NCBI GenBank assembly: GCA_902610415.1
Contig: CACLVL010000002.1
Location: 1 to 64,000 of the forward strand
Length of the DNA stretch: 64,000 nt
Reading direction: 5' to 3'
From: an uncultured Alphaproteobacteria bacterium
Lineage (GTDB): Bacteria; Pseudomonadota; Alphaproteobacteria; HIMB59
The stretch's first letter is position 1. Each line of letters starts with the position of its first letter. This document shows positions 5,521-19,698 of the stretch, piece by piece. Below the pieces are notes generated by a model. That model had not been told where the DNA came from. It worked only from the letters and a program-made list of their open reading frames with translations, and searched no databases. The translations under genes were made by a program, and so were the position numbers.

Positions 5521-7239
5521 ATGTTTAAAGATATTAAAATATTTAAGGATATTGATAAAAAGGGATATTTTAGAGTTTTAACTTTCACTTTTATTGGTGC
5601 TATAGCAGAAATGTTTAGTATAGCTTTACTTGTGTTTTTACTGACTCTGATTAGTGATGAAGTCACACTTTACGAATTGATAGAGAAATTTGAATTTTTT
5701 GAAATAGCAAATTCTTTCTCTAATTTTGAGTTGATGATTACCTTAATTTCAATTTTTGTTTTAATACAAGCATTAAAATCATTATTAGTAATTTTAATGT
5801 ACTATTTCCAAGCTGATTTTATTTATAATTTAAGAACAAAAATTTCATCTTTGCTTCTTAAAAAATATTTATATCTTAACTTAGACAGCCATAGTGATAC
5901 AAACTCAAGCAAATTTATTAGAAATATTATTATTGAAAGTCAGTTGGCATGTACTGGTTTTGTACTACCTGTAATACTAATATTTACTGAAATACTAGTC
6001 TTTATTCTAATACTTATATTAATATTTCTTAATGATAAATATATTGCTACAGCTATTTTAATATCATTATTGATATTTTATTTTTTATATACCAGTCTTT
6101 TGAAAAAAAAATTGGGTATGTGGGGAAAATATCGTCAAGAATATGAAAATAATAGAATTAAATTTGCAAAAGAGTCAATTGGCTTATACAAGTTAATAAA
6201 TTTACATAGCTTACAAAATTCTTTTTATAAATTATTTATAAATATAAATAAAAAATTAGCTAGAGTAGAAAAAATTCAACTAGTTATTAGCCCTATTCCC
6301 AGATTAGTTATTGAGTTTTCGGCGGTTGTATTATTAGCTATTTTGATAGTAATTTATTCCTTTGGTTCAAAAGATATAGCACAGATATTACCCACATTAG
6401 GTCTATTAATTGCTTCAGGGTTAAGATTACTACCCTCTTTTAATAGAATTTTAACTTCATACCAAAAAATAGGCTACAATAAGACTGTTGTAAATTTAAT
6501 ACGTAATGAATTGATAGATATAGATACTATCAGCAAAAAGTTTATCCAGAATAAAAATATTTTTAAAAAAGATATTTCCTTCAAAAATATAGAGTACTCA
6601 TTAAAAGAGTCTGGTAGAAAAATATTCAATATAAATAATTTAAAAATTAAAAAGTATGAGAAAATTGGTATTTGTGGAAAAAGTGGTTCGGGTAAGAGCA
6701 CATTTATTGACTTAATTATGGGTTTTAGAAATCCTGATAAAGGTAATATAATAATTGATAATCAATACGATTTAAGAAGTAAAAAAAACTTAAATTCTTG
6801 GAAGAGCAAAATTGGATACGTACCACAAAAAATGACTTTATTGGATGATACGATAATTAATAATATAACGTTAAATTTTGATAATAAAAAAAATAATAAT
6901 TTAAAAAAGATAAATGAAATTATTGAAATTTGCTGTCTTAAAAATTTTTTAGACAACACAAAAAATGGCTTTAACACAATTATTGGAGAAAATGGCTCGA
7001 AAATATCAGGTGGAGAGATGCAAAGAATATGTATTGCTAGAGCACTCTATAATAATCCAACATTTTTAATTTTAGATGAAGCCACAAGTGCATTAGATAA
7101 AGAAACTGAGATATTGCTTATCAAAAATCTATTTAAACAGAAAAAGACAATTGTTTTTATATCTCATAAGTTATCCTCTTTAAAAGAATGTGGCAGGATT
7201 TTTAAAATAGAAAATAAAAAATTCGTATTGAAAGATTAA
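5521..7239 (+). CDS. ABC transporter half-unit, polysaccharide/lipid-linked oligosaccharide flippase type
   Basis: A 572-residue membrane ABC half-transporter of the MsbA/PglK type, acting as a homodimer in the inner membrane. The N-terminal ~330 residues hold about six hydrophobic helices. The C-terminal ATPase has Walker A GKSGSGKST (386-394), Q-loop VPQKMTLLDDTI, signature SGGEMQR (~497), Walker B FLILDEATSALD (~515-526) and switch His in FISHK. Context (glycosyltransferases, nucleotide-sugar enzymes and an O-antigen ligase) argues for flipping an undecaprenyl-linked glycan, as PglK does. No Wzx is visible here. The start is 2 bases after the dehydrogenase stop. The 3' end overlaps the convergent FkbM gene by 4 bases. 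A lipid A exporter role (MsbA) is the alternative. Confidence 0.87.
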   Translation: MFKDIKIFKDIDKKGYFRVLTFTFIGAIAEMFSIALLVFLLTLISDEVTLYELIEKFEFFEIANSFSNFELMITLISIFVLIQALKSLLVILMYYFQADFIYNLRTKISSLLLKKYLYLNLDSHSDTNSSKFIRNIIIESQLACTGFVLPVILIFTEILVFILILILIFLNDKYIATAILISLLIFYFLYTSLLKKKLGMWGKYRQEYENNRIKFAKESIGLYKLINLHSLQNSFYKLFININKKLARVEKIQLVISPIPRLVIEFSAVVLLAILIVIYSFGSKDIAQILPTLGLLIASGLRLLPSFNRILTSYQKIGYNKTVVNLIRNELIDIDTISKKFIQNKNIFKKDISFKNIEYSLKESGRKIFNINNLKIKKYEKIGICGKSGSGKSTFIDLIMGFRNPDKGNIIIDNQYDLRSKKNLNSWKSKIGYVPQKMTLLDDTIINNITLNFDNKKNNNLKKINEIIEICCLKNFLDNTKNGFNTIIGENGSKISGGEMQRICIARALYNNPTFLILDEATSALDKETEILLIKNLFKQKKTIVFISHKLSSLKECGRIFKIENKKFVLKD

Positions 7240-8153
7240 TTATTTGCCTCTAAGTAAACATATCTCACAACTTTTGGAATTGTATTCACAAGCTGAGTAG
7301 CATCAGAATTATTTATATTTTCATAATACCCTCTTTGTATAAAGTCAGAATTTATTACATTAATAGGATTTAAATTCATAGATTTAAACTCAGAAGGTTG
7401 AGGTTTTTGAGCAGAAATTAATGCTTTTACACTATAACCTAGTTTGAATAAGTAACTTAATTCATTAGAGAAATTTCTATCATCATCATAAAAATGAGGA
7501 TGGATTTCTATTAGAATTCTTGGTTTCATTTTAGATAATGTCGCTTTCATACCTCGTAGAACCTCAACCTCATATCCTTCTATATCCATTCTTATAAAGT
7601 CTATTGAAGTTTCTACCTCTTGGATAAAACTATCAATAGATATACAAGTAATTTTTTTTAACTCATTAACTTTATATTTTGCAAAAAATTTTTCATCATT
7701 TCCTGTGCTTATTGTATTTAGATTACTTTCATCAGTTATAATAATATTTTTTAAATCATTATTCTCTGCAAGTCCTTTTTTATAAATATATGTGTTATTA
7801 GATTTATCAAAGTATTTTATATTTTGTTTAAGTAATTCATAATTTCTATCATCTGGTTCAAAACAAAATATTTTGGAATTGTTCCCAATAATTTTTCTTT
7901 GAAAAATAGGATAAAAACCAATATTAGAGCCACAATCTAAAACATTCATATCTTTTTTTAAATATTTTGAAATTAAAAATTTCATGTCATCCTCTCTTGA
8001 ACCATATATAGCAAGAGTCTTTGAAATGCCTGGCGTAACTAGATCTAGAAAAATTTCAAATTCTTTTATTTTAAATAAGGCAATCTTATTTCTTAAAAAA
8101 TATTTTTGAAATATCCATCTTAATCTTTGAAAGAATCTGAGTTTTTTAAGCAT
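7236..8153 (-). CDS. FkbM-family methyltransferase
   Basis: A 305-residue SAM-dependent O-methyltransferase of the FkbM family, common in glycan clusters where it methylates sugar hydroxyls. SAM motif I is NVLDCGSNIGFY (~69-80), an acidic residue ends the second strand in FCFEPDDRNYELL, and the C-terminal family block is DFIRMDIEGYEVEVLRGM (~185-202), followed by RILIEIHPHFYDDD. It is the last gene of the minus-strand operon that starts with the cytidylyltransferase/aminotransferase fusion. Its start overlaps the stop of the preceding gene by 8 bases. The target hydroxyl cannot be predicted. Confidence 0.87.
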   Translation of the reverse strand: MLKKLRFFQRLRWIFQKYFLRNKIALFKIKEFEIFLDLVTPGISKTLAIYGSREDDMKFLISKYLKKDMNVLDCGSNIGFYPIFQRKIIGNNSKIFCFEPDDRNYELLKQNIKYFDKSNNTYIYKKGLAENNDLKNIIITDESNLNTISTGNDEKFFAKYKVNELKKITCISIDSFIQEVETSIDFIRMDIEGYEVEVLRGMKATLSKMKPRILIEIHPHFYDDDRNFSNELSYLFKLGYSVKALISAQKPQPSEFKSMNLNPINVINSDFIQRGYYENINNSDATQLVNTIPKVVRYVYLEANN

Positions 8154-9696
8154 TTAATATTTTATCTATTTTATTTGAACACTCATCTATATGAAAATTT
8201 TGTTTCGAAATAAAATTTTCTATATATTTTTTTTGGGTATTCACTACTTCCTCATAATATTGAGTATCATTCATTATTAAATCTACTGACTTAGATAGTT
8301 TTTGCAAATTGTTAAAACAGAAAATATTAGTTTCCATTTTATTGAAATAATAAATATCTTGAAATAATGAACTAATATAATCATTCATTGAAATAAAAAA
8401 TACTGGTTTATTTAAAATCATTGCTAAAATGGATGACTCTGATAAATCAGTAATCATTAATTTTGATTTTGATATTATTTTTATGATATTTTCGGATCGA
8501 TTAAATATCTCTATATTTTTCTTTTTTTCTAAAAATAAAAATTGATCAGATGAATCATTTGGATGATATTTGATGTTAATTCTATATTTATGATTAATTT
8601 GTGCTTTATTTATTAATGAATAAATCAATGTTTTACTGTATTTAATGGTGCCACCAGGAATAAAAATACTTTTGTTATCATTTAAATTATCTTTAGAGTT
8701 TAATTTGATTGAGTCAAATAGTGGCGATCCATAAGTGTAAAAGTTAATAATATTAGTATATTTTGATTTTTTAATAGCATTGGATTGAAAATCATTCCAC
8801 ACGAAGGCATTTTTAATATAACCCAAATGTCCCATTTCATTAATGAATTTACTTGTATTACCAACATTGCTATGAAGAAGAATGTAATTTTCTATGTTAA
8901 GTTCATAACTTTTTAAATTTACTGCCCTGTCAAAAATTCTCCTATTTCTAATAGATATTACATTATTAGCATTGATGTTATTAAAGAGATTATCAAGAGC
9001 TTTTAAATAAAGATAAGCTTCAGGAATTAACTTTTCAAAAGTATTCTTAAAACCATAATATGAACATTTGTAAAAATTAAAATTTTCAATATTAAATAAT
9101 GAGTAAAGGAAATCTTGGTTTTCATTAAAACATTTTTTAAAACTTTCTTTAGATTCATTATACTCATCAATAATGTTATTGGATAAAAATTCATCAAAAA
9201 TAATAAAATTTTTCATATTTGAGTTAGGTTTATATAAATCTTTTGTAATAATAATTTTATTATTAGTAAGTTTAGATTTTTCTATATATTTTTGAATAAC
9301 GTAAAGATAACTTCCCATATTTGCAAAAAATAAATTATATTTTTTATTATCTATTTTAAATTTTGTATTTTTAGAAAGATGATCAAAGTTACTCTCAGGT
9401 TTGAGGTTTTGAAAATAGTTTTGTTTTGATTTTTTAAAAATATGATTTAAATAAAATTTGTAAAAATAGTTTAATAAAAAATTATTTTTTTTTTTATAAG
9501 TCAAATAATTTAAATAATTATTATTTATTAAAGTATGAATACTAGTTGCTTTTGGTAAAACTACATATTCAATTTTTAGATCACTATATTTAGGTGGAAA
9601 TATTGTTTTAATTTGTAAAAATTTATTTCTTATTAAATCGTAACCTTGATCTATTTCGGTATCAGATAATATTTTTTTTTGAATTAACTTTATCAT
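8146..9696 (-). CDS. Putative GT-B transferase, CDP-glycerol/polyol-phosphotransferase-like
   Basis: A 516-residue protein without a strong family signature by eye. Its C-terminal third (roughly 340-500) has a GT-B nucleotide-binding look: IFIPGGTIKYSKT, then YHPND, then SKSKLMITDLSESSILAMILNKPVFFIS, resembling the KYHP... TDxSS... EA region of CDP-glycerol glycerophosphotransferases and capsule transferases. The N-terminal half is rich in Asn, Lys and Tyr and not recognisable. Translation starts inside the 3' end of the LicD-like gene (35-base overlap). With a cytidylyltransferase fusion and LicD in the same operon, a CDP-linked donor is plausible but not shown. An ordinary glycosyltransferase is the alternative. 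Confidence 0.55.
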   Translation of the reverse strand: MIKLIQKKILSDTEIDQGYDLIRNKFLQIKTIFPPKYSDLKIEYVVLPKATSIHTLINNNYLNYLTYKKKNNFLLNYFYKFYLNHIFKKSKQNYFQNLKPESNFDHLSKNTKFKIDNKKYNLFFANMGSYLYVIQKYIEKSKLTNNKIIITKDLYKPNSNMKNFIIFDEFLSNNIIDEYNESKESFKKCFNENQDFLYSLFNIENFNFYKCSYYGFKNTFEKLIPEAYLYLKALDNLFNNINANNVISIRNRRIFDRAVNLKSYELNIENYILLHSNVGNTSKFINEMGHLGYIKNAFVWNDFQSNAIKKSKYTNIINFYTYGSPLFDSIKLNSKDNLNDNKSIFIPGGTIKYSKTLIYSLINKAQINHKYRINIKYHPNDSSDQFLFLEKKKNIEIFNRSENIIKIISKSKLMITDLSESSILAMILNKPVFFISMNDYISSLFQDIYYFNKMETNIFCFNNLQKLSKSVDLIMNDTQYYEEVVNTQKKYIENFISKQNFHIDECSNKIDKILNA

Positions 9697-10255
9697 TAAT
9701 TTTTCTAAAAATTCTATTTATAAGACTTTTTTTAATATGAATTTTCTTTGATGAATAAACATTTTCATCATTAGACATCTTAGGTGTTCGCCAATCATCG
9801 TAAATAAATTCTAAGAGTTCTTCTGTTTGACTAGGTATATAATAGTATCTTGATTTAAAAAATAATTTATCAAATTTTAAAAAATGCTTTTTTGGAAATT
9901 TATAATAAGATCTTTTAAGATATTCTTTATCAAAATACATCCCCCACAATGAATATTTATTATTCTCAAAAAAAACGTTAATTTTATAATTTTGATAAGT
10001 ATCATCTACTAGTTCATAGTCTAAATTATGAATATTTAACTGATCAAAAATTTGATCTTTTTTTTTCATTAATTCTTTTGAAAAACAACCAATTTCTACA
10101 TCCCAATCCCATTTTATAAAATTTTTTTCTCTTACAGCACCAAGTAAAACTCCTAAAAATAAAAAATTATGAATTTCTAGCTTATCAAGAATATCTGAAA
10201 TTTTTATTAAACCTATATTTCGTACATCAAGTTCTTGATCAGTATAGATTTTCAT
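9662..10255 (-). CDS. LicD-family phosphotransferase-like protein
   Basis: A 197-residue LicD/fukutin-type nucleotidyltransferase-fold protein. LicD enzymes move phosphocholine, or a related group, from a CDP carrier to a glycan. The N-terminal part shows LGVLLGAVREKNFIKWDWDVEIG (~34-56). This matches the LicD block GTLLGAxRHxxFIPWDDDxDI, with metal-binding acids at about D50, D52 and E54. One canonical Asp is Trp here (WDWD for WDDD) and another is Glu. The C-terminal YDDWRTP matches the family's Y-G-D-W-xx-P ending. I chose ATG 10255; a TTG at 10291 would add 12 residues with no homology. Downstream of an O-antigen ligase and overlapping the next gene. The modest deviation in the acid motif leaves activity slightly uncertain. 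Confidence 0.78.
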   Translation of the reverse strand: MKIYTDQELDVRNIGLIKISDILDKLEIHNFLFLGVLLGAVREKNFIKWDWDVEIGCFSKELMKKKDQIFDQLNIHNLDYELVDDTYQNYKINVFFENNKYSLWGMYFDKEYLKRSYYKFPKKHFLKFDKLFFKSRYYYIPSQTEELLEFIYDDWRTPKMSNDENVYSSKKIHIKKSLINRIFRKINDKVNSKKNII

Positions 10256-10461
10256 AATGTTGATTGTGGTTGATTCATAGTTCTTTTTCAAAAAAGATGT
10301 TTTACTACTTAAAAGTTGAAATTAATAGTTAGTATTGTCTCAATAATATATTTTTAAATATTTAATACAATAATTAGAATAATTAAGGTGTTAAAAATTG
10401 TTTTTGTATTTTACTAAATGTTAAATAATATAAGAAAATTTTTTAATATAAAATTTTCATA

Positions 10462-11715
10462 TTATTTTCTAAAAGAAATTTTATTGAAGACAAATAATAT
10501 CAGTGCCAAATTAGTAAATAAAATTGTACCATACCAGTTATTAAAGAAATCAAAAGTGGGAGCAAGAGGCCATATCATTGAAAACAATGATGCCATAAAA
10601 ACAATTTTAAAATCACTATCAATTTTTTCTAATTGGTTATTAATTTTAAAAAATAGATTTTTAATTAAATATTTTAAAATATAAATAAATAATGCAATAA
10701 GAAACAAAACCCCAACAAGTCCGGTTTCGGCTAAAAGTTGCACATAAAAATTATGTGGATGGGAGGAACAAGAGTATTCATTATAAAAGTTTTTTTTATT
10801 ACATAATTTTTTGAACATTTTTGGCCCTTGACCAAAAATTGGTTTTTCGACAAACATTTTTAAACCTGATTTAATATGTCCTTCATGAACCACTGTAAAT
10901 GGTAATGAAAATTCAGATTCTTTAAAATCATTTAAAGTCTCTTTATATCTATTATTAAGATTATCCGAAAAAAATATTGATGAAATAAAAATACATAAGA
11001 TTGAAACAAAGATAAACGACAATTTCAAAAATGATATTGTCTTAGAGAGAGTAAATATTATGAAAATAAAAATTAAATAATGCAAAGAAGCAGCTCTTTC
11101 TCCTGATAAAATTATGGAACCAAAAGAAACTAATATAAAAAAAATTATAAATTTATTATTTAGATTTAATTTATTAGTTTTTAGATAAAGACCAATCACA
11201 ATTGGACAAAAAGATGATAGGAAAATCCCAATTACCAATTCATCTTTAAAAAAACTAGACAGTCTACCTTGATATCCACTTTCAAAACCAAAAATATTTT
11301 TGCCAAATACAAACTGATAGTATGTATCAAAAATAACAAATATAATTAACAAAAGAGAAAGTTTTCCAAAAATATTAATTAAATTTTTATTGTTTTCAAA
11401 AAGATATACTATGCCCAAAATGTAAAAAAAATATCTAAAGTAAAATATAACTCCGTATTCAAATAAACTATAAATGGGATTAGGAGAAATTAATGAGCTA
11501 AATATTAAATATGCAGAAAAAATTATTAATATTTTAACTATATAAGACTCATAGAAATAAAATAATTTTAATTGAAAAGTTTTAATTAAAAAATATAAAG
11601 CTATTAAGGATAAAATTATATCTGGAATAGCTGGGCCAGTTAAAAGAGCAAATGGCATAAGAATAAAAATCAAGCTAAAAAAATTAAAATCAACTTGACG
11701 ATTAAAAATTAGCAT
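10462..11715 (-). CDS. O-antigen ligase/polymerase family protein (WaaL/Wzy_C)
   Basis: A 417-residue polytopic inner-membrane protein with about eleven hydrophobic segments. The long periplasmic loop near residues 265-330 contains the family block HPHNFYVQLLAETGLVG, with the His used by WaaL-type ligases and Wzy-like polymerases, and GQGPKMF upstream of it. LSGERAAS near residue 205 matches the conserved Arg-containing cytoplasmic/periplasmic edge. Such proteins join lipid-linked glycan to lipid A core or polymerise repeat units in the periplasm. It lies between the UDP-glucuronate epimerase (15-base gap) and LicD. Ligase versus polymerase cannot be settled from sequence. Confidence 0.86.
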   Translation of the reverse strand: MLIFNRQVDFNFFSLIFILMPFALLTGPAIPDIILSLIALYFLIKTFQLKLFYFYESYIVKILIIFSAYLIFSSLISPNPIYSLFEYGVIFYFRYFFYILGIVYLFENNKNLINIFGKLSLLLIIFVIFDTYYQFVFGKNIFGFESGYQGRLSSFFKDELVIGIFLSSFCPIVIGLYLKTNKLNLNNKFIIFFILVSFGSIILSGERAASLHYLIFIFIIFTLSKTISFLKLSFIFVSILCIFISSIFFSDNLNNRYKETLNDFKESEFSLPFTVVHEGHIKSGLKMFVEKPIFGQGPKMFKKLCNKKNFYNEYSCSSHPHNFYVQLLAETGLVGVLFLIALFIYILKYLIKNLFFKINNQLEKIDSDFKIVFMASLFSMIWPLAPTFDFFNNWYGTILFTNLALILFVFNKISFRK

Positions 11716-11730
11716 TTTTGAATATTAATG

Positions 11731-12732
11731 TTATTTATAATAATCTAAATACCAATCAACTAATTTAGAAATGCCTTTATCTAGATTTGTGCTAGGTACA
11801 AAATTTATCCATTCTTTTAATTTATTTGAGTCAGAAAAAGTTTTTTCAACATCTCCAAGTTGTATAGTTTCATATTTCTTTATTGCTTTTCTATTTAATT
11901 TTTTTTCAATTGTGCATATAAAATCATTTAATTTAATTGGCTTTGAATTACCAATATTGAATATCTTGAACTTGCACGAACTTAAACTAGGAATTGGATC
12001 TTCGTGATTAAATTCATAATTTTCCAATGGAATTTTGTCATTAACTTTTATTATTCCATTAACGACATCATCGATAAAAGTAAAGTCTCTAAACATGTTA
12101 CCATTATTAAAAATTTTGATTGGTTCTTCATTTAAAATAGATTTAATAAAAATCATTCCAGCCATATCCGGTCTACCCCATGGACCATACACTGTAAAAA
12201 ACCTTAATCCGGTAGTGGGAATACCATAATTATAACTATAAACGTGAGACATGAGTTCATTAGTTTTTTTTGATGCAGCGTATAGACTAACAGGGTGGTC
12301 AGTTGAAGAGTCTTCATGAAATGGATATGATTTGTTCGCTCCATAAACACTTGAACTACTAGCAAATACTAAGTGTTTAACATTAAATTTCCTACAAGCT
12401 TCAAGTATGTTCAAAAAACCATAAATATTTGAGTCAATGTATGCCTTTGGATTTGATGAAGAAAATCTTACTCCAGCCTGTGCTCCCAAGTTAATAACAT
12501 TATCTATTTTAGAATTTTGAAATATGGAAAAAATTTCATCATTACAAAAATCTAAATGATTGAATTTAAAATTTTTGAAATTACTAAGAATTTTTAGCCT
12601 ATCTTTTTTTAAACTAACATCATAATAATCGTTAATATTATCTATTCCAAATACTTCATCTCCTCTCTCTAAAAGTTTTTTTGCTGTGTGCATTCCTATA
12701 AAACCCGCACAACCTGTAATTAATATTTTCAA
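11731..12732 (-). CDS. UDP-glucuronate 4-epimerase-like SDR
   Basis: A 333-residue NAD-dependent extended short-chain dehydrogenase, converting UDP-glucuronate to UDP-galacturonate in the cytoplasm. Seen: GCAGFIGMH NAD motif (7-15), the GAE-type sequence GIDNINDYYDVSLKKDRL (~34-51), SSSSVYG (~125), the YAASK Tyr/Lys catalytic pair (~151-155) and GLRFFTVYGPWGRPDMA, which is typical of the GAE/LpsL/Cap1J group. The start is TTG at 12732, fixed by the first beta strand MKILITG. It follows the fusion gene by 69 bases and precedes the O-antigen ligase by 15. UDP-glucuronate could come from a dehydrogenase elsewhere or from the one at 4.3 kb. Confidence 0.88.
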   Translation of the reverse strand: MKILITGCAGFIGMHTAKKLLERGDEVFGIDNINDYYDVSLKKDRLKILSNFKNFKFNHLDFCNDEIFSIFQNSKIDNVINLGAQAGVRFSSSNPKAYIDSNIYGFLNILEACRKFNVKHLVFASSSSVYGANKSYPFHEDSSTDHPVSLYAASKKTNELMSHVYSYNYGIPTTGLRFFTVYGPWGRPDMAGMIFIKSILNEEPIKIFNNGNMFRDFTFIDDVVNGIIKVNDKIPLENYEFNHEDPIPSLSSCKFKIFNIGNSKPIKLNDFICTIEKKLNRKAIKKYETIQLGDVEKTFSDSNKLKEWINFVPSTNLDKGISKLVDWYLDYYK

Positions 12733-12801: not shown

Positions 12802-14121
12802 TTAACATTCCTCAATTAAATCTGTTATATACTGTTCTTCTTTGTATATTTCTCCAAGATGGCAAACTATTGATCCATCAATTTGGAGCCTTGGCTTGTA
12901 AAATATTACTTCTACATTTTTGTTAGTTGATTGAATTTTTTTGTTTAATCTTGTGCACAAAATAGGTTGATTTTCTGATTTATAAAATATTTCAAATTTA
13001 TCTAAAACTTTTTTTTTGGATTTTTTTACTCTATTAACTAATTTATTGTAGTTCTTCATCACACCATATAATGAACATATTGCATGATAAGGGCCTGTTG
13101 TTGTTTTATTTTTCATATTATCATAATTCATAGTAAATGAATTATGGATATTATTAGCTTCGATAATTTTTAATGAAGATTTGTGTGCAATAAATGCAGC
13201 TCCAGTAGTACCTAATAAACCTTTACATGAGCTGAAGCCAATTAAATCTGCATTTTCATGGCCTTCTTCTAGTCCTATTGATGCTGTTGAGTCTAAAAAA
13301 AGCTTTGCCCCTAATCTATTTGCTGTTTCTCTCAAAAATCTAATATCAGACTTAAAAGCTTTGGAAGTTTCAACATATGTAGCCATCACCCAATCAACTT
13401 TTGAGGTAAAATTATCCAAATCTTCATAACTACAATGTTTTACAGATACATTTTTTTTGTTTAAAAAAAATTCAAATCTATCACTGTAAACTCCTGTATC
13501 TACGATTAAAACTTTACTACTAATAAATGTCTTAGCTGCTAATTCAAGAGCATTCGTGGCACTACCTTGAAAAGTAATTAAGTTATCCATTTTTGTAAGA
13601 TTTTTAATCCAACTGGTAACCTCATCATAGATTTTATTATATTGGTCATCACCTCTTCCAAAAACTGGATTGAATTCATTGAGATGTTCATTTAAAATTG
13701 CGGCAGGACCGGGGGTTAAAAGTAATTTCGATTGGTTCCTTTTGTCAATAAGTGTCTGAAGACTTTTTTCACGAAGTTCATAACTACTTATACCCTCAGT
13801 TCTACTTACTATAATTAAGTGATCTTTGCTAACATCATTAATATTATCATCTCCATGAAAAAGATAGTCAATTTTATGCTTATTAAGAAATGCTTCATTT
13901 ATCAACCATGGGCACTCAATAACTTCACTTACATATTTAATTGACTCAAGTATCTCTTTTCTATACTCAAATTTTAATTCAGGTTTATATTGTTTCTTTT
14001 GATAGACCTCCTCATCGCTGGTTAAAGCAACAACAACTTTGCCGTGTTCTGCTGCTTTTTTTAACAAACGTATGTGTCCATGATGTATAAGAGTGGCGGA
14101 CATATCAACTAAAATTCTCAT
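12802..14121 (-). CDS. Fusion: TagD-like cytidylyltransferase + PhnW-like (2-aminoethylphosphonate-type) aminotransferase
   Basis: A 439-residue two-domain protein. Residues 1-130 are a nucleotidyltransferase-fold domain with HHGH (13-16, the HxGH motif), VVVALTSDEEV, and EGISSYELREK (~110-120, ISSTxxR-like). Its opening MRILVDMSATLIHHGH resembles the cytidylyltransferase domain often fused to PEP mutase. Residues ~133-439 are a class V, PLP-dependent aminotransferase. It starts LLLTPGPAAIL, has FLDSTASIG with the PLP-ring Asp, and Lys300 in FSSCKGLLGTTGAAFI, aligning with SSNKCIxGVPGFGFV of PhnW. The domains could form and activate an aminophosphonate or similar amino compound as a CDP derivative. 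No PEP mutase is in the window, so the substrate is inferred. ATG 14121 chosen over TTG 14136. Confidence 0.8.
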   Translation of the reverse strand: MRILVDMSATLIHHGHIRLLKKAAEHGKVVVALTSDEEVYQKKQYKPELKFEYRKEILESIKYVSEVIECPWLINEAFLNKHKIDYLFHGDDNINDVSKDHLIIVSRTEGISSYELREKSLQTLIDKRNQSKLLLTPGPAAILNEHLNEFNPVFGRGDDQYNKIYDEVTSWIKNLTKMDNLITFQGSATNALELAAKTFISSKVLIVDTGVYSDRFEFFLNKKNVSVKHCSYEDLDNFTSKVDWVMATYVETSKAFKSDIRFLRETANRLGAKLFLDSTASIGLEEGHENADLIGFSSCKGLLGTTGAAFIAHKSSLKIIEANNIHNSFTMNYDNMKNKTTTGPYHAICSLYGVMKNYNKLVNRVKKSKKKVLDKFEIFYKSENQPILCTRLNKKIQSTNKNVEVIFYKPRLQIDGSIVCHLGEIYKEEQYITDLIEEC

Positions 14122-14168
14122 CTTAAAAAATTTCAATACTCTCTTCTGTTTTATCCTTAAATATCAAA

Positions 14169-15263
14169 TTAATTATTTTTTTCTATGTAAATAGATTGAG
14201 ATGGGAATGCAAAATTTAGTCCAATATTTTCGACATATTCTTTTATTTTCATTGCTAACTCCTCTTTAATTTCAAGATATTTATCCCAGTCTTGGGTCGA
14301 AGTAAAACAAATAATTAATATGTCTATTGAGCTATCATTAAATTTTTCTAGTCTTACGAAAGATTTATAATTTTCATTAATCATGAAATTATCATTATTA
14401 ATAAGATAGTGTGATATTGAATTAGTAAGTTTTTTAATTTGATCTAATGTTGAATTATACTCAAGACCAATAGTCCAGTTTATTCTTCTGTAATTTCTGT
14501 TTGTATAATTTAATATTGGTGCTTCAGCAAAAATATAATTTGGTATTGTAATTGGTGTAGAGTCAAACTTTCTTATTAAAGTTGATCTAAATCCTATATG
14601 TTCCACAGTTCCTTCGGTGTGGCCAGGAACTTTTATTACATCACCTAATTGAAACCTTTTTTCAAGAAGTATCATTATTCCAGAAATCAAATTTTTAAAT
14701 AAATCTTGGGCACCTAACGCAACAGCTACACCAAATAAGCCTAAACCTGCAATTACTGGTCCAATTTTTATACCCCATACCTCAAGTACTGCAACTATAC
14801 CTAAAAAAATAATTAGGTATTTTAGCGATTTTATAATCCAAAGTACTAACCCCTTAGTAAGGATTTTTTCTAATCTGTTAAATAGATTAGAAAAAGGAAT
14901 TAAGGCTTGATGTATGAGCCAAAAAACAAATATTGTTGATAGAGTATTATTAATTTTTTGAAAATATAAACCTAAAGTTGACTCAATATCAAAATATAGT
15001 GTTATAGCTAGAAAGACAATTACTATTGGCAGAAGTCTAAAAGGTGGAACTAAAGCATCGAACAATTTATCATCAATTTTGTTACCAGTTTTGGATACTA
15101 AAGTCTTTACTTTATTTACAAGTATTCTTGCTATAACAGACCTTACTAATAAAGAAAAAATTACAGCAACAAAAATGATTGCTAGATCGACTAGGCTCAG
15201 ACCAAATACACCATCACTAAATACCCTTATAATTTGTGAGTATAAATTTCGAATAAGATCCAT
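14169..15263 (-). CDS. MscS-family mechanosensitive ion channel
   Basis: A 364-residue inner-membrane channel that opens under hypo-osmotic stress. There are about five hydrophobic helices in the N-terminal half. The pore helix is GLGLFGVAVALGAQDLFKNLISG, with Gly/Ala packing as in TM3 of MscS. The soluble beta domain LGDVIKVPGHTEGTVEHIGFRST follows, then a pairing TPITIPNYIF and a C-terminal alpha/beta domain. It sits 32 bases before the cytidylyltransferase/aminotransferase fusion on the same strand and could lead that operon. The groEL terminator lies just upstream, so it needs its own promoter in the ~27 bases beyond or read-through. Family call is secure. Confidence 0.93.
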   Translation of the reverse strand: MDLIRNLYSQIIRVFSDGVFGLSLVDLAIIFVAVIFSLLVRSVIARILVNKVKTLVSKTGNKIDDKLFDALVPPFRLLPIVIVFLAITLYFDIESTLGLYFQKINNTLSTIFVFWLIHQALIPFSNLFNRLEKILTKGLVLWIIKSLKYLIIFLGIVAVLEVWGIKIGPVIAGLGLFGVAVALGAQDLFKNLISGIMILLEKRFQLGDVIKVPGHTEGTVEHIGFRSTLIRKFDSTPITIPNYIFAEAPILNYTNRNYRRINWTIGLEYNSTLDQIKKLTNSISHYLINNDNFMINENYKSFVRLEKFNDSSIDILIICFTSTQDWDKYLEIKEELAMKIKEYVENIGLNFAFPSQSIYIEKNN

Positions 15264-15290
15264 AAAATAATATTATAGTAATTTAAAAAA

Positions 15291-15311
15291 AAAGCCGCAC
15301 AAAGCGGCTTT
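15291..15311 (-). terminator. Rho-independent terminator after groEL (bidirectional look)
   Basis: AAAGCCGC (15291-15298), a 5-base loop, and GCGGCTTT (15304-15311) form a perfect 8-bp stem. It is flanked by A runs on one side and T runs on the other, so it can end transcripts in either direction. It lies 28 bases beyond the groEL stop on the minus strand and insulates the chaperonin operon from mscS. Confidence 0.9.
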
Positions 15312-15338
15312 TTTTTTAATATTTAATAATTTAACAGC

Positions 15339-16997
<1,659 letters not shown>

Positions 16998-17541: not shown

Positions 17542-19698
17542 TTGGTTGAGAATAATTTCACTAAACAATTAGTATTGATAGGTGGAGGCCATGCAAATGT
17601 GCAAGTTCTTAAAAAATTATGTATGAATAGAATTAAAGGACTTCATACAGTTCTAATTAGTGAGCGTTATGAGGCTACTTATTCAGGTATGACTCCTGGA
17701 TATATTCACAAGGATTTTAATAAAGAGGAAATAAGTATAGATCTTCAAAGATTGTGTTTTAATGCTGGAGCCACTTTTATTATGGATAAGGTAGTTAAGA
17801 TAGAAACTAAAAATCAAAAACTAGAATTACAGAATTTTCACTCAATTAATTATGATTTACTTTCAATTAATACCGGTTCAATTTCGAATTCAAAAAAAAT
17901 TAATATAGAAAATACATCAAAATATTTTTTTGTGAAGCCAATAAGTTCGCTAGTCAAAAATCTAAAAAAAATTGATCAAATTGTAAAAAATAAAAAAAAT
18001 AAGCTTATTATTATTGGAGGAGGAGTAGCATCTTATGAATTAGCCTTTAGTCTTGTAAAAAGATATGAAGAACCTTTAGAGATCGCAATTTTAGGAAAAA
18101 AAATACTAGGGGAAAAAAATTTAAATCAAAAAACAAAAAATAAACTTAGAGCAATAGCTAAAAGTTTAAATATTAAAGAGTATTCAGGAGAAGTTGTTTC
18201 AATATCAGAAACAAATTTAACTTTAAAAGACGGTAAAAAGATAAATTGTAATTTAAGTTTACTTTCTACAGGTGCAAATATTGAAAGGTGGTTGTTAGAT
18301 AGCGATCTAGGTAAAGATGAAAATGGATTTATCACTGTAGATTATAATCTTTTATCTACTAATAAAAAAAATATTTTTGTTACAGGAGATGCATGCAGCA
18401 TTGAAAATAATACTAGAGCAAAATCAGGAGTGATGGCGGTACGCCAAGGTGAAATATTAAAAGAAAATATTTTTCTTAAATTGACTGGTAAAAAGCTAAT
18501 TAAATTTAGGCCACAAAGAAACTGGCTATACTTGATTGGTACCTATGAAAACTATGCATTATTAAATTATTTTTTCTTATCTTTTCATGCCAAGTGGTGC
18601 TGGAAACTTAAAGTATGGATTGACAAAAATTTTATTAATAAATTTAAATTTGCTGAAAATCAAAAAATGACTAGAAAAAATTTTGAGTTAGAAAATTCAA
18701 GGGATATTAAAATGTATTGTCAAGGTTGTGGCTCTAAAGTTTCAAAAAGCACCTTAGTTGACTATATAAGAAAAATTAATGATAATGTTGATTTAAAAGA
18801 CTCTGCTATTATTAATAATAATTCCTCCAAGATATTGCAAACAATAGATCATATAAAACTTTTTTCATCTCTTAATCCTTTTGATTTTGGCAAAATTAGT
18901 TATTTACATTCCCAAAACGATATCTTATCAGCAGGTGGAGTTGTTAAATCACTTAGTGTTTCAATAGGTGTGCCATTCTCTGAAAATTTTATTGAAAAGT
19001 TTTATTTAGAATATTTTATGGAAGGAATTAAATCTGAAGCGGACAAAGATAAATGTCTCATTTCATCTGGTCATAGCTATCAATCTAAAGAGTCAGGTAT
19101 AACTCTCACTTTGAATGGTGAAATAGAGAGTATTGCTGCAAAAAATTCTGCCAGAGAGGGTGATCTTATATACTTGTCTAAGCCTCTTGGAACTGGTTAC
19201 TTGCTAGCTGCATACTTTAAAAACTCTGAAATGCTATCAAGTAATGATTTTGAAAAGATTATCAAAAATCTTAAGATGGGGAATCTATTTGCTGTAAATT
19301 CTGCAAGAAGTTCTGGCTGTCAAACTATGACTGATATCAGTGGTTATGGATTATCATCTCATCTTATTGACATATGTTCTTCATCTAATTTGTCTAGTAA
19401 ATTAATAATTAATAAAAATATTTTGATAAATTCTAATCTCGACCTATTAAAGATATTTCAAAGCACAGGGTTTGAAAATAATTATAAATCTACAAATGAA
19501 TTCATCGAAATTTCAGAAAACCATCCTTTGAAAAATATACTTTATGATCCACAAACAAATGGTCCAATATTAATGGCTATTGAAAAGAACAATAAAGAAA
19601 AATTTGAAAATTTTTTTTCAAATAAATTAGATAATAAACCAATCTTAATTGGTAAATTTGTAAATAAATCAAAAAAGATTATATATGTTGATGAATAA
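17542..19698 (+). CDS. selD: Fusion: NADH-dehydrogenase-like flavoprotein + SelD-like domain
   Basis: A 718-residue fusion. Residues 1-~385 form a pyridine nucleotide-disulfide/NDH-2-like FAD protein, with GGGHANVQVLKKL near the start, a second dinucleotide motif IIIGGGVASYELA (~155) and FAD-end motif FVTGDACSI. Residues ~391-718 are an AIRS/SelD-like ATP-dependent domain (selenide + ATP to selenophosphate in true SelD). It has CQGCGSK with a Cys396-x-x-Lys399 pair equivalent to the catalytic Cys/Lys of SelD, HSQNDILSAGG with a metal Asp, and SSGHSYQSKESG. The C-terminal half is divergent (SSGHS for GGHS). The start is TTG, forced by the early FAD motif. Fusions of this architecture are known; selenium use here is unproven. 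Confidence 0.8.
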   Translation: MVENNFTKQLVLIGGGHANVQVLKKLCMNRIKGLHTVLISERYEATYSGMTPGYIHKDFNKEEISIDLQRLCFNAGATFIMDKVVKIETKNQKLELQNFHSINYDLLSINTGSISNSKKINIENTSKYFFVKPISSLVKNLKKIDQIVKNKKNKLIIIGGGVASYELAFSLVKRYEEPLEIAILGKKILGEKNLNQKTKNKLRAIAKSLNIKEYSGEVVSISETNLTLKDGKKINCNLSLLSTGANIERWLLDSDLGKDENGFITVDYNLLSTNKKNIFVTGDACSIENNTRAKSGVMAVRQGEILKENIFLKLTGKKLIKFRPQRNWLYLIGTYENYALLNYFFLSFHAKWCWKLKVWIDKNFINKFKFAENQKMTRKNFELENSRDIKMYCQGCGSKVSKSTLVDYIRKINDNVDLKDSAIINNNSSKILQTIDHIKLFSSLNPFDFGKISYLHSQNDILSAGGVVKSLSVSIGVPFSENFIEKFYLEYFMEGIKSEADKDKCLISSGHSYQSKESGITLTLNGEIESIAAKNSAREGDLIYLSKPLGTGYLLAAYFKNSEMLSSNDFEKIIKNLKMGNLFAVNSARSSGCQTMTDISGYGLSSHLIDICSSSNLSSKLIINKNILINSNLDLLKIFQSTGFENNYKSTNEFIEISENHPLKNILYDPQTNGPILMAIEKNNKEKFENFFSNKLDNKPILIGKFVNKSKKIIYVDE

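Follow-up and report, generated by a model that had tools for sequence, protein, structure and literature searches.

The minus-strand gene at positions 12802-14121 of the window (the whole 64,000-nucleotide stretch analyzed here) encodes a 439-residue protein in which an N-terminal cytidylyltransferase (CyT) domain is fused to a C-terminal aminotransferase domain, referred to here as AT2. This protein of a marine bacterium is probably a bifunctional enzyme that makes 2-aminoethylphosphonate (AEP) and activates it with CTP for surface tailoring. Phosphonoacetaldehyde would be supplied by PEP mutase and phosphonopyruvate decarboxylase, whose genes would lie beyond the sequence recovered. The AT2 domain would transfer an amino group to this aldehyde to give AEP, and the CyT domain would convert AEP and CTP to CMP-AEP and pyrophosphate. 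Within the same surface-polysaccharide island, a transferase of a LicD-like or similar type would then move the phosphonate onto a glycan. The fusion itself, its intact motifs, the predicted folds, the placement of both families and the gene neighborhoods of relatives are observed; we infer the substrates, products and order of these steps as well as the amino donor, the acceptor glycan and the upstream enzymes in this organism.

Architecture of the fusion protein

The reading frame starts with an ATG at 14121; use of an in-frame TTG at 14136 would extend the uninterrupted frame to 12802-14136. In line with what the sequence-only reading had described, an HxGH nucleotidyltransferase and a PLP enzyme are joined in a single continuous frame of 439 residues with both motif sets intact. 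An AlphaFold2 model of the fusion, run with 55 relatives, showed two domains (pLDDT 94.2, pTM 0.90). Relatives were collected by scanning GTDB genomes with the CyT domain as the query, and the best 80 of 129 loci were analyzed. The fusion is no assembly accident because CyT-AT2 fusions recur in ten other loci from Pseudomonadota, Chloroflexota, Cyanobacteriota, Bacteroidota and Melainabacteria. A tblastn search of plasmids gave no match, and a viral scan returned one weak CyT match with 38% identity.

The CyT domain (residues 1-119; 13765-14121, minus strand) was assigned using Pfam and structural alignment. PF01467 covers residues 11-100 (E 3.9e-15; 56.7 bits against a cut-off of 21) and was the only Pfam family found in the window protein; a MobA/LicC-like domain was not found. 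The catalytic HHGH motif lies at residues 13-16 (14074-14085, minus strand) and the RTEGISS nucleotide-binding motif, aligned with RTEGIST of TagD, at residues 107-113 (13783-13803, minus strand). The earlier assignment to the TagD type rather than the MobA/LicC type thus holds, and CTP motifs are present in this first domain. HxGH was conserved in 80/80 CyT family members from the best 80 of 129 loci. When modeled alone (pLDDT 97.1), the CyT domain aligned with phosphoethanolamine cytidylyltransferase (3elb, Z 17.3), TagD (1coz, Z 17.2) and the phosphonate cytidylyltransferase Fom1 (Z 16.6). CTP enzymes reached Z scores of 15.0-17.3 compared with 12.0 or less for phosphopantetheine adenylyltransferases, and this closer structural match is only suggestive of CTP rather than ATP specificity. 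The solved structures closest to the CyT profile were likewise phosphoethanolamine, hydroxyethylphosphonate (Fom1) and glycerol-3-phosphate cytidylyltransferases.

The nucleotidyltransferase had initially been likened to the one attached to PEP mutase. Our CyT tree rules out this type, since the window domain belongs to a distinct, widespread family that is separated from the PEP-mutase-fused CyTs with a support of 99. The family motif is RTxG[IV]S while PEP-mutase-fused CyTs mostly carry YTxG[VI]S or lack the motif. The tree is otherwise poorly resolved and the number of fusion events cannot be counted from it; a topology that keeps all fused CyTs together was not rejected (p-AU 0.427), although their aminotransferase domains differ. 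As a separate observation, the PEP mutase in about 40 loci (e.g. L053, 4524-5864) already carries a CyT of the different clade, resulting in two CyTs per cluster.

The AT2 domain (residues 129-439; 12805-13737, minus strand) was assigned by its tree clade and a fold-type-I match. Lys300, proposed as the PLP lysine from the sequence alone, lies in SSCKGLLG (codon at 13222-13224, minus strand) and aligns with the PhnW lysine, as does the ring-binding aspartate D277 with its PhnW counterpart. A lysine occupies the PLP position in 19/20 rows of the AT2 alignment, and AT2 retains the GSA and ET motifs. Its own invariant residues include H288, H346 and H421, with R411 being nearly invariant, and the window domain keeps the catalytic lysine and nearly all AT2-conserved residues.

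The description of this domain as PhnW-like had to be revised. Its best NCBIfam aminotransferase match was PhnW-AepZ (TIGR03301, residues 133-335), at 55.4 bits against a cut-off of 360.8, and the PhnW model TIGR02326 gave 35.7 bits against 400.8. In a quick tree, AT2 formed its own clade with a support of 100, apart from both PhnW and a glyoxylate-aminotransferase-like set, a placement that rules out either identity within a reference set drawn by PhnW similarity, in which serine- and alanine-glyoxylate aminotransferases were not exhaustively sampled. The domain thus groups neither with the serine- or alanine-glyoxylate enzymes nor with PhnW. Two PhnW-invariant arginines are missing in AT2, including the arginine of the C-terminal FRI motif (R in 14/14 PhnW rows, V or I in 20/20 AT2 rows). 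Judged from these residues, substrate binding by AT2 must therefore differ from that of PhnW. All 32 AT2 members scanned (32/32) matched PhnW profiles, and the top four solved structures closest to the AT2 profile were AEP transaminases (7e7g, E 1.7e-22). The fold was rejected as a basis for assigning function, as the full-length search tied PhnW, PntC-AEPT and other class-V aminotransferases at Z values of about 31. Pfam did not recognize the AT2 of locus L053, the single AT2 gene scanned, and gave a sub-threshold class-V match for the aminotransferase of L045. By these profile and tree comparisons, AT2 is a separate clade that is mostly missed by Pfam and whose closest profiles are AEP transaminases.

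A variable surface-polysaccharide island

The fusion gene heads a minus-strand run of genes. The next gene of the likely operon (11731-12732) encodes a sugar-nucleotide epimerase (PF01370) with its best match, at 51% identity, in the SAR86 cluster L067. It is followed by genes for an O-antigen ligase/polymerase-like protein (10462-11715; PF04932) and a LicD-like protein (9662-10291), a candidate user of the CMP-activated group. The latter scored 22.0 bits for PF04991, with the cut-off at 22.6, and matched the NCBIfam cholinephosphotransferase model Mf1 at E 3e-8, below cut-off. A 516-residue protein (8146-9696) resembles CDP-glycerol phosphotransferases by eye only and has no Pfam or NCBIfam match. 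Last in the run is an FkbM-family methyltransferase (7236-8153; PF05050), whose only match in the best 80 of 129 loci is again found in L067.

On its other flank, the fusion gene adjoins mscS and groEL (14169-16997). mscS was present in 10/10 genomes of the genus searched and adjoined groEL in 4/5 regions read; beyond this pair, other genomes of the genus carry either another polysaccharide island or genes of an ordinary kind. Based on the window and five further regions (L154-L158), mscS-groEL is a conserved anchor with variable surface-polysaccharide islands, or none, beside it. Since the neighbors of mscS differ across the genus, the window island is one version of this variable island. The contig starts at base 1 of the window, still among glycosyltransferase-like genes, and the far end of the island lies beyond it. 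On visual inspection, a 718-residue protein encoded on the groEL side (17542-19698) resembles a fusion of an FAD oxidoreductase with a selenide, water dikinase-like domain.

Among 52 genomes of the family, which consists of one genus, the fusion was found only in the window genome and PEP mutase in only 1/52. PEP mutase and phosphonopyruvate decarboxylase had been called absent by the sequence-only reading, and neither was found in the window genome. This absence says little because genome completeness is 66% and the island is cut by the contig end, and both enzymes are encoded next to the fusion or its domains in most relatives. A different phosphonate cluster is present in the same genus (L032, genome G071, 7319-11428). 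It encodes a CyT-PEP mutase and a decarboxylase-like protein together with iron alcohol dehydrogenase-like and CDP-alcohol phosphatidyltransferase-like proteins, perhaps a route to a hydroxyethylphosphonate lipid.

Gene contexts of relatives and the choice between readings

Relatives from more than ten phyla are found either within clusters for phosphonate synthesis or next to phosphonate importer genes. The best 80 of 129 loci comprise 10 CyT-AT2 fusions, 7 CyT-PhnW-type fusions, 33 loci with a CyT and a separate AT2 gene and 30 with a CyT and neither; given its CyT query, the search reveals only AT2 genes living with a CyT. PEP mutase was encoded in 7/10, 7/7, 30/33 and 1/30 of these loci, respectively. 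Loci with an aminotransferase therefore differ sharply from those without (44/50 vs 1/30; Fisher p 8e-15, with related loci treated as independent), while a phylogeny-aware test on the CyT tree rested on two supported pairs only and was not significant. Phosphonopyruvate decarboxylase was present in most of the aminotransferase-carrying loci. A search for PhnW genes in the AT2 loci of this set found none, which leaves AT2 as the only transaminase candidate there. Of the aminotransferase loci without PEP mutase, three (L104, L090 and L095) are truncated at contig ends and a fourth, L108, encodes the enzyme at another place in its genome; in the genomes of L045 and L107, PEP mutase was not detected. 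L045 and the SAR86 locus L067 are the closest full-length relatives of the window fusion within the set (51% identity). In L067, PEP mutase, fusion and decarboxylase genes lie in a row, accompanied by homologues of four window-island genes. Genes for PEP mutase, decarboxylase, AT2 and CyT also occur together at locus L091 of the cultured species Methylophilus methylotrophus.

Some CyTs without an aminotransferase are found in a second context. A three-gene ABC importer related to phnS2/phnT2/phnU2, putatively for AEP, was present in 13/30 aminotransferase-less loci and 0/50 others among the best 80 of 129 (Fisher p 4e-7, again with related loci treated as independent). These importer names are database annotations. 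With 421 and 415 bits, respectively, the binding proteins from Photobacterium and Shewanella exceed the 393-bit cut-off of phnS2, which is annotated as a putative AEP-binding protein, and the ATPase and permease have phnT2 and phnU2 as their best matches, below cut-off. In L066 (8463-12147), L069 (8472-12143), L070 (8463-12157) and L046 (8462-12031), the CyT gene is located immediately upstream of such an importer, and no PEP mutase over cut-off was found in these four genomes; L069 belongs to Shewanella marina. AEP transporters of the AepXVW, AepP and AepSTU types have been characterized in other bacteria (2021; PMC8316502). A CyT beside an importer where PEP mutase was not detected suggests AEP salvage for surface decoration. 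The biosynthesis and import contexts of the relatives thus point from two sides to AEP as the likely CyT substrate. Large proteins encoded beside the CyT were also noted in L077 (1782-4745; YidC-like N-terminus and a weak sulfatase-like match) and L105 (6099-9029; similar to the L077 protein by eye).

The import context raises the question of whether the window organism itself might import AEP and make no phosphonate, with the CyT domain activating imported AEP and the aminotransferase being left over or running in reverse. The association of CyT-only relatives with AEP-type importers and the failure to find PEP mutase in the 66% complete genome would both fit, as would the CyT-AT2 fusion of Flaviramulus (L107, 7977-9362). 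There, FNSGNALGG replaces SSCKGL, placing an asparagine at the PLP lysine position, and a LicD-like gene adjoins the fusion. This decayed aminotransferase in a genome with no detected PEP mutase is also consistent with our preferred reading, in which only organisms that make phosphonoacetaldehyde would require the AT domain. Against pure import, the window aminotransferase retains the catalytic lysine along with almost all AT2-conserved residues. Further, no importer permease reached cut-off in the window genome in a search confined to the PhnU2 type (best 63 of 593 bits). We therefore regard pure import as unlikely.

A CDP-amino-alkyl phosphate had been named as an alternative product. In this case, the aminotransferase would aminate a phosphorylated aldehyde or ketone and CyT would activate the product. 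The CyT fold and profile are equally close to phosphoethanolamine and glycerol-3-phosphate enzymes and to Fom1, two PhnW arginines are lost in AT2, and PEP mutase was not seen in the 66% complete window genome, all of which would be compatible with such a substrate. It is disfavored by the PEP mutase found in 44/50 aminotransferase-carrying loci among the best 80 of 129, most of them with the decarboxylase, and we consider it quite improbable. Very improbable is a third reading, in which each domain has its own substrate or an AEP derivative (e.g. hydroxylated or N-methylated) is the substrate and the fusion serves co-regulation only: clusters with two CyT types, at least one of which may act on a non-AEP substrate, would allow for it, but the CyT family occurs in fusions with aminotransferases of two kinds, AT2 or PhnW-type, both in PEP-mutase clusters, suggesting that the aminotransferase product is the CyT substrate. 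Formation and activation of AEP by the same protein, with a CMP-aminophosphonate as the most likely product, is the reading that we prefer.

Comparison with known systems and significance

The protein closest in design, and the one enzyme known to perform both steps, is PntC-AEPT from Treponema denticola (Tde1415, PDB 6pd1/6pd2), for which CMP-AEP formation and AEP transamination have been measured (Rice et al. 2019, PMC6697681). Both proteins combine a cytidylyltransferase and a (for the window, putative) AEP transaminase in one chain, and PntC-AEPT clusters also carry LicD-like genes. In contrast to the MobA/LicC-like PF12804 domain of PntC-AEPT, the window protein has an HxGH domain of PF01467, and its transaminase belongs to another clade. 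By analogy, the window protein would work like PntC and PntC-AEPT, for which such a scheme is established (PMC6697681); it is not a member of that group because its cytidylyltransferase is of another superfamily. The idea of a solution different from PntC, as put forward by the sequence-only reading, is thereby supported.

The single domains have known counterparts as well. The Fom1 cytidylyltransferase domain (PDB 5x3d) acts on hydroxyethylphosphonate (PMC6697681). It is of the PF01467 type like the window CyT and ranks first among single-domain matches to the CyT profile (90.5 bits) but is fused to PEP mutase, and the PEP-mutase-fused CyTs of our loci form a different clade. TagD, a glycerol-3-phosphate cytidylyltransferase (1coz), shares fold, HxGH and RTEGIS with the window domain (39% identity over 119 structurally aligned residues), whereas its gene contexts differ from those of the CyT family and its NCBIfam equivalog model gives the window CyT 56 bits against a 165-bit cut-off. 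PhnW, the AEP-pyruvate transaminase (1m32, 9kk8, 7e7g), has the fold-type-I class-V architecture, PLP lysine and aspartate in common with AT2 but, besides the differences in clade and arginines described above, AT2 has a shorter C-terminal part. The CyT-PhnW-type fusions (L035, L036, L038, L042, L056, L057 and L064; Campylobacterales, Methylophilaceae and Hydrogenothermaceae) combine the same CyT family with a transaminase of the PhnW clade, unlike the window protein, in clusters with PEP mutase and decarboxylase. Another locus (L120, genome G184) encodes a 595-residue protein with a PhnW-like domain and extra sequence, a possible further PhnW fusion.

No biochemical evidence came to light for members of the CyT or AT2 family, and the open-licence literature yielded no description of a CyT-AT2 fusion, a CyT-PhnW-type fusion or a PF01467-type AEP cytidylyltransferase. 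On balance, we lean towards the broader view that a TagD-type AEP cytidylyltransferase family and AT2 with its rebuilt substrate site constitute a second, independently evolved route to CMP-AEP, with the CyT also serving AEP-importing bacteria that decorate their surface with AEP rather than break it down.

To our knowledge, apart from PntC, little has been established about how phosphonates become attached to surface glycans in bacteria. If the proposed function is true, the CyT family would provide a marker for CMP-AEP formation that escapes searches with PntC, in groups such as SAR11, SAR86, Prochlorococcus and Methylophilus, and a role would be assigned to an unrecognized aminotransferase family. 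Some bacteria with AEP importers would decorate themselves with salvaged AEP instead of using it as a nutrient only. Phosphonate genes are common in the marine phosphorus cycle, on which these findings would then have a bearing.
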